Origin: Sulfurospirillum sp. | GTDB lineage: Bacteria > Campylobacterota > Campylobacteria > Campylobacterales > Arcobacteraceae | Direction: 5' to 3' | Assembly (NCBI GenBank): GCA_030491005.1 | Contig: JAKZMJ010000027.1 | Span: 1 to 64,000, forward strand | DNA: 64,000 nt | Shown: one piece after another, positions 43,277 to 47,571 of the stretch | Layout of the letters: each line of letters starts with the position of its first letter | How positions within the stretch are numbered: position 1 is the stretch's first letter | Made by a program: the position numbers and the translations under genes | Notes under the pieces: model-generated | What the model saw: only the letters and a program-made list of their open reading frames with translations | What the model was told of the DNA's origin: nothing | Databases searched by the model: none

Positions 43277-44485
43277 GTGTTTAAAGAAATAGAATTTGAA
43301 AGAATGAAAAGATTGCCCAATTATGTCTTTGCTGAGGTTAATGAAATTAAAATGCAAGCAAGACGAGCTGGTGAGGATATTATTGATTTTTCTATGGGAA
43401 ACCCTGATGGAAAAGCACCACAGCATATAATTGACAAATTAACACAAACTGCTCAAAAAGATAAAAATCATGGTTATTCTGCAAGTGCTGGAATATATAA
43501 GTTAAGACTTGCCATTTGTAATTGGTATAAAAGAAAATATAATGTAGATTTTTTAGATCCAAATAAACATGCATGTGCAACTATGGGTTCAAAAGAAGGT
43601 TATGTACACTTGGTTCAAGCAATAGTAAATACTGGTGATGTAGCAGTTGTGCCAGATCCCACTTATCCTATTCATTCATACGCTTTTATGTTAAGTGGTG
43701 CAACTATCCATAAATTTGAATTAGGTTTTGGTGATGATTTTAGAGTTGATGAAGATTTGTTTTTTAAAAGATTACAAACTACTTTAAATGAATCAATTCC
43801 TAAAGTAAAATATGTACTTGTAAACTTCCCACATAATCCTACTTGTGCAACAGTTACCCCTATATTTTATCAACGATTAGTTGATTTGGCTAAAAAAGAA
43901 AGATTTTATATCATTTCTGATATTGCTTATGCTGATATTACCTTTGATGGATATGTTACTCCTTCTATTTTTGGAGCCAAGGGTGCTATTGATGTGGCTG
44001 TTGAGAGTTTTACTTTAAGTAAATCATATAATATGGCTGGTTGGAGAGTTGGCTTTATGGTTGGAAATGAACGCTTAATTGGGGCATTAAAAAGAATTAA
44101 ATCATGGTTAGATTATGGAATGTTCACACCCATTCAAGTTGCGGCAACGGTAGCACTTGATGGTCCACAAGATTGTGTAAAAGAACATGTAGAAAAATAT
44201 CATAAAAGAAGAGATATTTTACTTAAAGCTTTTGAAAATGCTGGTTGGAATATAAATAAACCAAATGCCTCTATGTTTATATGGGCAAAAATTCCAAAAA
44301 AAGCCAGACATTTAGGATCTATGGAGTTCTCTAAACAATTAATAACTAAGGCAAAAGTGGCAGTTAGTCCTGGTATTGGATTTGGATATTATGGTGATGA
44401 ATATGTAAGAATTGCTTTAATAGAAAATGAAAAACGAATAAGACAGGCAGCCAAAAATATAAAAAAATACTTAAAATCATTATAA
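43277..44485 (+). CDS. Class I/II PLP-dependent aminotransferase
   Basis: A 402-residue aspartate-aminotransferase-fold enzyme starting at GTG with AAGGAG upstream. Landmarks are DFSMGNPDGKAPQHI, NFPHNPTCATV (the NPT motif), SDIAYADITFDGY and the PLP-lysine segment LSKSYNMAGWRVGFMVGNE. It resembles the alanine/LL-diaminopimelate aminotransferase group. Its place just before the inserted pair and hom suggests an amino-acid biosynthesis role. The substrate cannot be fixed. Confidence 0.9.
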   Translation: MFKEIEFERMKRLPNYVFAEVNEIKMQARRAGEDIIDFSMGNPDGKAPQHIIDKLTQTAQKDKNHGYSASAGIYKLRLAICNWYKRKYNVDFLDPNKHACATMGSKEGYVHLVQAIVNTGDVAVVPDPTYPIHSYAFMLSGATIHKFELGFGDDFRVDEDLFFKRLQTTLNESIPKVKYVLVNFPHNPTCATVTPIFYQRLVDLAKKERFYIISDIAYADITFDGYVTPSIFGAKGAIDVAVESFTLSKSYNMAGWRVGFMVGNERLIGALKRIKSWLDYGMFTPIQVAATVALDGPQDCVKEHVEKYHKRRDILLKAFENAGWNINKPNASMFIWAKIPKKARHLGSMEFSKQLITKAKVAVSPGIGFGYYGDEYVRIALIENEKRIRQAAKNIKKYLKSL

Positions 44486-44504
44486 AAGATAAATAGGAAA
44501 TACT

Positions 44505-45869
44505 GTGAAATTAAGAATAGAAAATCTTGCAAGAATTAAACAAGCAGAAGTTGAAGTTAAAAACTTAACACTTTTTGTTGGACAAAATTCTACTCATAAA
44601 AGTTATATGGCTCATACTATTTATGAATTATTAAGGCTTTTAGATAGAGATTCTGATAGTCTAACAAAAGAAAAAAAGAATATGCTTTTTGATTTATATA
44701 AGGAAGCAGATTTTCTTCTAAAATATATTATTGAAAAAAGAGAGATTAAAGAACAAAATAGTTTATATACATATATAATTTTATTAGTTGATGGAGATAA
44801 CAAAAAATTTTATAAACTAATTGATAAATTATGTCATTTAGTAAATAAGGTTATCTTAAAACTGATAAATAAAAGTTTTAATAATAATTCAAATATATTA
44901 GAGAAGTTATTTTTTGAACAAGATTTAGAAATGAATAGTTTATTTAGACAACAACAATATGAATTTAGAATATATAAAAAAGAAGATGATTTAAATAATG
45001 ACTTAATACTATATATGATACTAAGTGATTTTACAGATATATTGTTTAAATTTTATAAAGATAGCTTGTCTTCTTATTATGATATACAATATTTCCCAGC
45101 TTCAAGAACAGGCTTTGTCTTAGCGTTTGATGAAATTGTATCTGGACTTTTAAGAGATAAATATCGTGGACAATCTAGCTCAGCAAAACTCACAAAACCA
45201 ACAATTGATTTTATAACAAATTTTTCAGATATCAAAACTAGTAAATTTAATTTAAATTTTTTAGATGCTTTTGGATCAAATAAAAATAATTCAGAAAATA
45301 AAGCAGCTAGACTAAAATTAGTTAATTTTTTACAAAATAATATAATCAAAGGTAAGATTGAAGAAAAAAAGTTAGATGATAATTATAGAAGTTTTTATTT
45401 AAAAACAAAAAATAATACAAAACTAGATTTACATTTAGCATCTTCTGCTACACTTGAGACATTACCTTTTGTTATATTTTTAAGAAATAACACAAATATT
45501 AAAAAAACACTTTTTGTAATTGAAGAACCAGAAGCACATCTTCATCCTAAAGCACAAGTACAAATGGCTAAGTTTTTAGTTTTACTTTCAAATACTGGTG
45601 CAAAAGTAATAGTTACTACTCATAGTGATTATATTTTAAATGAAATAAATAATTGTATTAAATTAAGCACGATTAATAAAGAAGACGATTTTTCAATTTC
45701 AAAAGATAATGTATCTGCATATTTGTTTAAAAATGAAGAAAATGAAACAACAGTAAATCAGCTTAAGATTGATAAATATGGAATTGCAAATGATAATTTT
45801 GATGAAGTATTAGATGAGCTTTTAGATAGAAGTAGTGAATTAACGGAAACCATAATGAATAATGAGTGA
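44505..45869 (+). CDS. AAA-family ATPase with atypical Walker A, in a two-gene unit
   Basis: A 454-residue ABC/SMC-like ATPase of the kind found in defence systems. It opens LRIENLARIKQAEVEVKNL. Walker A is GQNSTHKS (26-33), where His replaces the last Gly before Lys. Next come YFPASRTGFVLAFDEIVSG, LASSATLETLPFVIFL (signature-like) and Walker B VIEEPEAHLHPKAQ (Glu at 340-341). The His switch TTHS is at 371-374. A charged helical insert spans about 60-195. No TOPRIM or other nuclease domain is attached. It starts at GTG behind AGGAAA and overlaps the next gene by 8 bp. It separates an aminotransferase from hom, which I recall as adjacent in C. jejuni, so it is an insertion. Confidence 0.8.
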   Translation: MKLRIENLARIKQAEVEVKNLTLFVGQNSTHKSYMAHTIYELLRLLDRDSDSLTKEKKNMLFDLYKEADFLLKYIIEKREIKEQNSLYTYIILLVDGDNKKFYKLIDKLCHLVNKVILKLINKSFNNNSNILEKLFFEQDLEMNSLFRQQQYEFRIYKKEDDLNNDLILYMILSDFTDILFKFYKDSLSSYYDIQYFPASRTGFVLAFDEIVSGLLRDKYRGQSSSAKLTKPTIDFITNFSDIKTSKFNLNFLDAFGSNKNNSENKAARLKLVNFLQNNIIKGKIEEKKLDDNYRSFYLKTKNNTKLDLHLASSATLETLPFVIFLRNNTNIKKTLFVIEEPEAHLHPKAQVQMAKFLVLLSNTGAKVIVTTHSDYILNEINNCIKLSTINKEDDFSISKDNVSAYLFKNEENETTVNQLKIDKYGIANDNFDEVLDELLDRSSELTETIMNNE

Positions 45870-46296
45870 TTTATTAGATAGTATATTTCAAGTTGTTAAT
45901 GAATGCAAGGAAAATGAGTGCAAAATTAATAAAAAAGATATAAAAAAGATTTATAAGCCTGATTTGGGTATATTAGATACAAAATTGCAAAAAGAATTAT
46001 TTGGAAATGTAAAACAAGTAAGCCTTTGTGATTGTGTTATTATAAAAAAAAATAATCATATATTATTACTTGAAATTAAATGTGGCACAGTAACAAATAG
46101 TATATTAAAAGAAACTATTACACAAATTTCAAATGTATATAAAATATTAGAAAATAAAAAGATAAAAGTAAATAAGTGCATTTTGATTTGTAAAAAATTT
46201 AGTGATGTTATGTTAAAAAAGAGTATTTTAACAAAAAGGATTAATGGTATTCCATTAACTAATAAAACTTTCAAAAATATTGCACTAGAAATTTAA
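45862..46296 (+). CDS. Small PD-(D/E)XK-like protein paired with the ATPase
   Basis: 144 residues. Asp57 (LCDCVIIKK) is followed by LLLEIKCG with Glu71 and Lys73, the spacing and strand pattern of PD-(D/E)XK nucleases. Gln88 lies on the next helix, where these folds often have one. An acidic residue on the first helix (Glu14 or Glu17) could complete the site. Its ATG overlaps the end of the ATPase gene, so the two are co-translated and probably form one complex. No signal peptide or membrane helix. I do not recognise a named family; nuclease activity is inferred from motifs only. Confidence 0.65.
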   Translation: MSDLLDSIFQVVNECKENECKINKKDIKKIYKPDLGILDTKLQKELFGNVKQVSLCDCVIIKKNNHILLLEIKCGTVTNSILKETITQISNVYKILENKKIKVNKCILICKKFSDVMLKKSILTKRINGIPLTNKTFKNIALEI

Positions 46297-46308
46297 AGGA
46301 AAAGAAAA

Positions 46309-47571
46309 ATGTTAAAAATTGCCATAATTGGAGTAGGAACTGTTGGTTCTAGTGTTGCTAATATATTAAGAGATAATAAAGATATTATTTGTTCTCGTGC
46401 AGGAATTCAGTTAATTCCTAGTATTGGTGTTGTTAATAATTTAAGTAAAAAAAGAGATGTTAGTATACAACTAACAGATGATATTGACTCTGTACTAGAA
46501 GATGATAGCATTGATATTATTGTTGAACTTATGGGTGGTGTTACACAAGCTTATGAAGTTGTCAAAAAAGCTTTAAAAAAAGGCAAAGCTGTTGTTACTG
46601 CAAATAAAGCACTTTTAGCATATCACAGATATGAGCTTCAAGAACTTGCAGGTGATATTCCTTTTGAATTTGAAGCAGCAGTTGCTGGAGGAATTCCTAT
46701 TATAAATGCTTTAAGAGAAGGGTTAACAGCAAATCATATTCAAAGTATGAAAGGTATTATGAACGGTACTTGTAATTATATGCTAACTCGTATGATAAAT
46801 GATGGTGTAGCTTATGATGATATTTTAAAAGAATCACAAGATTTAGGTTATGCAGAAGCTGATCCTACTTTTGATGTAGGTGGTTTTGATGCAGCTCATA
46901 AGCTTCTTATTTTAGCTTCAATTGCTTATGGTATTGATGCTAAACCTGAAGATATTTTAATTGAAGGTATTGAAAATATTACAAAAGCTGATATTGAGTT
47001 TGCTAATGAATTTGATTATTGTGTTAAACTTTTAGGAATTGCAAAAAAAGTTGGAAAGCAGATTGAACTTCGTGTAAATCTAGCATTTATTCCAAATTCA
47101 CAAATGCTTGCTAAAGTAGATGGGGTTATGAACGGTATTTCTGTAATCGGAGATAAAGTAGGTGAAACTATGTATTATGGAGCAGGTGCAGGCGGAGATG
47201 CTACAGCATCTGCTGTTATTGCTAATCTTGTAGATATTGCAAGAAGAGGTAAAGGTTCACCTATGTTAGGTTTTAAATCTGAAAATCTTGAAAATCTTAC
47301 TTTAATGTCAAAAGATGATATAAAAACAAAATACTATTTAAGACTTAGAGTTGAAGATAAAACAGGAGCTTTAGCAAAAGTTTCAACTATCTTGGCAAAT
47401 CATAATATTTCTATTGAAAAAATGCTTCAAAAACCTGTAAATAAAACTTGTGTTCATCTTCTTTTATCAACTCATACTTGTATGGAAAAAGATATAAATC
47501 AAGCTTTAAAAACACTTGAAGATGAGACAGTTGTAACTTCTAAACCTGTTATGATTAGAATTGAGGATTAA
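46309..47571 (+). CDS. hom: Homoserine dehydrogenase
   Basis: It reduces aspartate semialdehyde to homoserine on the way to threonine and methionine. The 420 residues contain the NAD(P) site IIGVGTVGSSVANIL, VELMGGVTQAYEVVKKAL, TANKALLAYH, FEAAVAGGIPIINAL and GIMNGTCNYMLTRM. A C-terminal ACT domain (YYLRLRVEDKTGALAKVSTI) suggests feedback by an amino acid. AGGAAAAG precedes the ATG. It resumes the conserved gene run after the inserted pair. Confidence 0.96.
   Translation: MLKIAIIGVGTVGSSVANILRDNKDIICSRAGIQLIPSIGVVNNLSKKRDVSIQLTDDIDSVLEDDSIDIIVELMGGVTQAYEVVKKALKKGKAVVTANKALLAYHRYELQELAGDIPFEFEAAVAGGIPIINALREGLTANHIQSMKGIMNGTCNYMLTRMINDGVAYDDILKESQDLGYAEADPTFDVGGFDAAHKLLILASIAYGIDAKPEDILIEGIENITKADIEFANEFDYCVKLLGIAKKVGKQIELRVNLAFIPNSQMLAKVDGVMNGISVIGDKVGETMYYGAGAGGDATASAVIANLVDIARRGKGSPMLGFKSENLENLTLMSKDDIKTKYYLRLRVEDKTGALAKVSTILANHNISIEKMLQKPVNKTCVHLLLSTHTCMEKDINQALKTLEDETVVTSKPVMIRIED

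Follow-up and report, generated by a model that had tools for sequence, protein, structure and literature searches.

Two overlapping genes, here called A and B, lie at 44505–46296 of the window, by which we mean the whole 64,000-nucleotide stretch of Sulfurospirillum sp. DNA analysed (assembly GCA_030491005.1, contig JAKZMJ010000027.1; its genome is G000 below, and other G and L labels denote the other genomes and loci compared). They separate a class-I aminotransferase gene (AT) from hom, the homoserine dehydrogenase gene. On our analysis it is fairly likely that they form a divergent unit of an OLD-type ABC ATPase and a small nuclease, in which A would be a sensor or gate and B an effector cutting nucleic acid on phage infection; the pair is probably an abortive-infection sensor and effector. 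On the best reading of the sequences it fits the larger kind to which WonAB and PD-T4-4 belong, not as a named member but as a divergent subfamily.

A (44505–45869, forward strand like all features given here) starts with GTG and encodes 454 residues that match Pfam AAA_15 (1.8e-20) and AAA_21 (3e-16) and the PADLOC model PD-T4-4_A (1e-38). B (45862–46296) starts with ATG and encodes a 144-residue putative PD-(D/E)XK nuclease with profile matches to the partner nucleases of related ATPases. The two genes overlap by 8 bp (45862–45869), as do their counterparts in G001, G030, G112 and G424, and are probably one translationally coupled unit. An initial annotation, made from the DNA sequence alone, had noted this overlap, the GTG start and the EEPEAHLHP and TTHS motifs of an AAA-type ATPase in A, and D57-x13-E71-x-K73 and Q88 in B; all are present where it placed them. 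It did not mention the non-canonical Walker A motif of A, GQNSTHKS (44580–44603), in which His replaces the canonical Gly. A also has the Walker B and D-loop segment TLFVIEEPEAHLHP (45507–45548) and the H-loop VTTHSDYI (45612–45635); its Walker A Lys, Arg, Walker B Glu and H-loop His are K32, R201, E341 and H373, the last being His in all ATPases compared except that of G364.

The pair is inserted between core genes

The junction that A and B occupy is usually closed. AT (43277–44485) and hom (46309–47571) are separated by 9–37 bp in 45 relatives measured directly and by 11–169 bp in 41 further relatives (by subtraction of gene coordinates), so that the adjacency proposed in the initial annotation extends family-wide, with gaps of 9–169 bp across 86 empty sites; in genus g6 they lie on separate contigs in all seven genomes having both. 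The pair sits at AT|hom in 3 of 104 family genomes, namely G000, G001 (where it is divided over two contig ends, continuity being inferred) and G030. The junction is unoccupied in two congeners of G030: the AT stop codon TAG is followed by GATAAGAA and the ATG of hom, where G030 has TAG, GAGATATAAATA and the ATG of A. In the window, 19 bp containing a ribosome-binding-like AGGAAA precede A (44486–44504) and 12 bp separate the B stop from hom (46297–46308). G424, of family f16, has the order AT-A-B-hom with the ATG of A immediately after the AT stop, whereas in G112 A and B separate gatB from gpsA, two genes that are direct neighbours in three congeners, and in G209 the pair adjoins a rimO-like gene. 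The suggestion that the unit is an insertion, not a fixed part of the locus, is thus borne out at this site, at another site and in another family. We found no integrase beside the pair and saw no duplication or scar at the AT|hom junction. Promoter signals did not rise above chance, and nothing resembling a terminator was detected between AT and hom.

Occupation of AT|hom in four genomes besides that of the window, across two families, means that old vertical inheritance with losses is possible there, and the cassette may have been inherited vertically with many losses at this junction. A vertically inherited housekeeping role in methionine/threonine synthesis or DNA repair is nevertheless very improbable, given the absence of B from 100 of the 104 family genomes, the empty junctions of the G030 congeners and the occurrence of the pair at gatB|gpsA. 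Two sequence comparisons point instead to movement. At four-fold sites, A and B differ between G000 and G001 at 15/131 positions and the flanking genes at 105/500 (Fisher p=0.012), and this lower divergence suggests that the cassette was exchanged after the two species split, with codon-usage effects as an alternative. The A tree unites G112 (family f1) with G424 and G364 (family f16; support 98/99), which suggests transfer between families. The cassette would thus be a passenger in a biosynthetic operon; lacking an integrase of its own, it would move from one lineage to another, probably through recombination of imported DNA.

Other genes are found in comparable positions. In G090, of another genus, a Fic/DOC family protein (L169, 1363–2121 of G090:C102; Pfam 3.6e-9) lies between AT and hom, so that passengers of at least two kinds have occupied the junction, which suggests that it is an insertion hotspot. 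Pairs of an ATPase and a small partner lie between the core genes tlyA-like and ribF-like in G059 (L006, 1501–3470) and between the core genes moeA-like and lnt-like in G040 (L005, 1495–3370); because these too are flanked by core genes, it may be generally true of such units that they insert into core operons. Such cassettes can hide singly inside core operons, outside defence islands.

The ATPases form a clade with an altered Walker A motif

An A-profile search of the phylum sample recovered G424, G000, G209, G364, G284 and G418 at 1e-114 or better, the next match being at 1e-39. With G001, G030 and G112 these make up a clade of nine genomes, whose eight sequences in the tree group together with support of 100/99. 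After the phage loci L122/L123 were added and two long branches removed, the eight were no longer resolved as one group, and the exact neighbours of the clade are therefore uncertain; in both trees it stands apart from the PD-T4-4 group. Its Walker A reads GxNST[H/N]K[ST], with His or Asn before the Lys in 8/8 sequences, a position held by Gly in 20 of the 21 other ATPases compared. Apart from G364, the clade retains intact Arg, signature, Walker B and H-loop motifs, and the ATPases that neighbour the clade in the tree likewise have a nuclease-like gene downstream. A sequence search of the PDB with the A profile returned nothing at 1e-3. Ratios of non-synonymous to synonymous substitution (dN/dS) were 0.27–0.29 for A and 0.24–0.40 for B.

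The one exception among the other ATPases, from Vibrio phage 1.202.O (L114, 1987–4018), has Asn in the Walker A motif GPNSSNKT and a partner with D..D-L-K; this pair is flanked by genes for a CI repressor and a DNA breaking-rejoining enzyme.

B aligns with the nuclease partners of related ATPases

Searches recovered B from six genomes, in each of which it immediately follows A. Its identity in the five other than G000 is 37–96%; this conservation, always after A, marks it as a real gene and not a chance reading frame. No B was found in plasmids or viral contigs. Six residues are invariant in the six-way alignment: C15, C20, D57, C58, E71 and C74. Two of them belong to the putative active site D57-x13-E71-x-K73 (46030–46080), and we compared the B profile with the partners of related ATPases in five groups, H, P, E, N and S. 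Scores were 20.9, 31.1, 22.7, 28.6 and 18.4, respectively, with D57 and E71-x-K73 in register with the motif positions of each group, and shuffled columns scored as high in 2, 0, 0, 0 and 0 of 100 trials; none of 100 did so for L006/L024 when these were taken separately from group P. The D..E-x-K pattern recurs in most partner proteins. HHalign probabilities were low (2–40%), so we read the profile match as support, not proof, for B as a putative PD-(D/E)XK-type nuclease. The profile alignment was used since a MAFFT alignment of B with remote partners, tried as an alternative, placed D57 inconsistently.

Strand alternation, rather than a model, suggests that if D57/C58 and E71/K73/C74 are on adjacent strands, C58 and C74 would point away from the active site and lie close to the N-terminal C-x4-C. 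The four invariant cysteines (45904–46083; codons at 45904, 45919, 46033 and 46081) are candidate metal ligands.

A probable divergent relative of WonAB and PD-T4-4

PD-T4-4, reportedly described by Vassallo in 2022, combines an ABC-type ATPase of about 460 residues with a small PD-(D/E)XK protein, as the pair would if B has this fold. Against its PADLOC models (PDLC04032–04037), A scored 1e-38 and 6e-33, where clear PD-T4-4 members score 1e-136 to 1e-150, and B gave no match to the PD-T4-4_B models up to E=1. The members also differ from A in sequence, their Walker A GKT and IDEPELNLHP corresponding to NST[H/N]K and IEEPEAHLHP in A, and A falls in a separate, supported clade.

WonAB, assigned to the class 'OLD-ABC ATPase + novel REase' (Krishnan 2020 as cited in PMC12137116), is the closest known analogue in function; its plan is two genes, for an OLD-type ABC ATPase and a small PD-(D/E)xK protein, to which B would correspond. 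Both genes and their active sites are required; DNA is not simply degraded, and translation stops (PMC12137116). Its authors regard it as part of a larger family of ABC-ATPase sensors with nuclease effectors and note its similarity to PD-T4-4 (PMC12137116). We take K32, R201, E341 and H373 of A as counterparts of WonA K34, R182, E300 and H333, and the motif Lys lies at position 73 in B and 71 in WonB. As surrogates for the WonAB sequences we used the phage pairs L122/L123, which residue spacing suggests are WonAB-like; they share an EEPEAH-type motif with A but have Walker A GPQAQGKS and a very long branch. Although B is short, as the initial annotation had stressed, it is not unusually so, since it lies within the partner size range (139–142 residues in L122/L123).

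In the first tree the A clade had as its next neighbours the ATPases of L006 (at tlyA|ribF), L024 (in G046) and the phage loci L119–L121, a sisterhood that was unstable when sequences were added. Their partners have a motif of the D..E-x-K or D..E-x-R type; those of L006/L024 also share with B the DC at the motif Asp and the N-terminal Cys pair. These pairs differ in a canonical Walker A Gly and in partners of 186–203 residues.

A also matches other defence ATPase models in PADLOC, including OLD and Gabija, which upholds the proposed relation to anti-phage proteins. Septu and Gabija, which the initial annotation had named as reference systems, are replaced by PD-T4-4_A as the nearest models. 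They and PARIS are two-gene defence units and have, like the pair, an ATPase of the OLD/AAA_15 type. The partner of Septu, PtuB, is an HNH protein, whereas neither Pfam nor PADLOC gave an HNH match for B; unlike Gabija, A has no TOPRIM match and no UvrD-like GajB is present, the neighbours being AT, B and hom; and unlike PARIS, B has no DUF4435/TOPRIM (AriB) match, A matching AriA only as a general AAA_15 protein (1.8e-24). Because the two-gene plan is already published (PD-T4-4; WonAB, PMC12137116), 'undescribed defence system' was too strong a description, but the A+B subfamily itself is not covered by PADLOC, Pfam or NCBIfam. It extends this little-studied kind of unit to a branch that defence databases half recognise.

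Decay of A without B in G364

G364, a congener of G424, has the order AT-A-hom (L153, 4259–5650), and no B was reported from it in the phylum search. The H-loop His is gone from its A (TTNS in place of TTHS), and PASRTG and AHLHP have become PVSRAG and AHLQV. These losses are relevant because WonA requires its own counterparts of these ATP-site and H-loop residues (PMC12137116), and decay of A in the absence of B is what would be expected if A is useful only alongside B, here in one case. The case also bears on the unlikely alternative of a selfish, toxin–antitoxin-like addiction cassette, in which B would be a toxin, A would restrain it and phage protection would be secondary. That WonB overproduction is toxic (PMC12137116), that Pfam annotates AAA_21 as 'putative AbiEii toxin' and that a Fic protein is among the AT|hom passengers all favour such a cassette; against it, the WonAB ATPase is needed for toxicity and not just for restraint (PMC12137116), and A persists in G364 but in decayed form, as expected if it is useless alone.

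Beside the clade A genes of G284 (L154, 5049–7359) and G418 (L155, 1046–3029), upstream, lies a gene for a 288-residue HTH/ANT protein. We considered whether this protein might stand in for B as the nuclease partner and rejected the idea, since 32 of the 298 genomes have it and most of those lack clade A.

Proposed mechanism and its difficulties

In the mechanism that we favour, A would dimerise through composite ATP sites and hold B on its C-terminal part; phage infection would lead A to license B to cut nucleic acid, and the infected cell would be stopped. By analogy with WonAB the target of B might be RNA needed for translation, or it might be DNA. PD-(D/E)XK enzymes are mostly DNases, which speaks for a possible, though clearly less probable, alternative: that the pair acts on DNA, with A recognising or remodelling invading phage, plasmid or transforming DNA and B cutting it, as a small restriction or plasmid-exclusion system. 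The matches of A to OLD and Gabija ATPases, whose relatives cleave DNA (PMC10568477), point the same way.

Several observations weigh against a sensor ATPase with a nuclease effector. B directly follows A in 6/6 genomes that have B; in addition to G364, however, G284 and G418 carry clade A genes without B, and with intact ATPase motifs, so that the pairing is not absolute and some clade members may work differently. The non-Gly Walker A may mean weak ATP turnover, and the occupied loci are not in defence islands. B itself matched nothing in Pfam, PADLOC or NCBIfam, and a PDB sequence search with its profile gave nothing at E<0.05. Its active site is not invariant, K73 being Leu in G209 and Q88 being Lys in G424, and the three phage partners of group P alone gave a weaker signal (7/100 shuffles). 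The PD-(D/E)XK assignment made in the initial annotation is backed by the profile alignment but not by structure prediction: AlphaFold models of B alone (pLDDT 38) or with a five-row alignment (pLDDT 46) were too poor to name a fold, and structural comparison with the PDB gave only Z under 6, to mixed folds, which speaks neither for nor against PD-(D/E)XK. The single losses of K73 and Q88 and these poor models would suit a B that is no nuclease but a small Cys-bearing regulatory partner of A, its D/E/K motif being coincidental; this is improbable, as the motif lines up with those of several partner groups better than shuffled controls do.

More speculatively, and at best tentatively, the sensor–effector pair may belong to a distinct subclass of ATPase–nuclease immunity, marked by His or Asn for the P-loop Gly, a four-Cys zinc or iron–sulphur site (perhaps a redox or metal switch) and repeated entry, without a mobile element, at the same core-operon junction, shared with conflict genes such as Fic. 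Natural tests are provided by an ATPase that has decayed where its nuclease was lost, and by a P-loop lacking its second glycine.

Additional observations

G+C content is 20–24% across A and B, against 31–33% in the flanking AT and hom, and is similarly low elsewhere in the region. In G001 a PD-T4-4-like pair (L081, 5356–7273) lies upstream of an asparaginase-like gene, and in G000, its sister genome, a PemK/MazF-like toxin gene (L170, 930–1328) lies upstream of that asparaginase-like gene. G000 also encodes a second AAA_15-like ATPase (L118; G000:C26, about 62.0 kb), with a 238-residue downstream partner.
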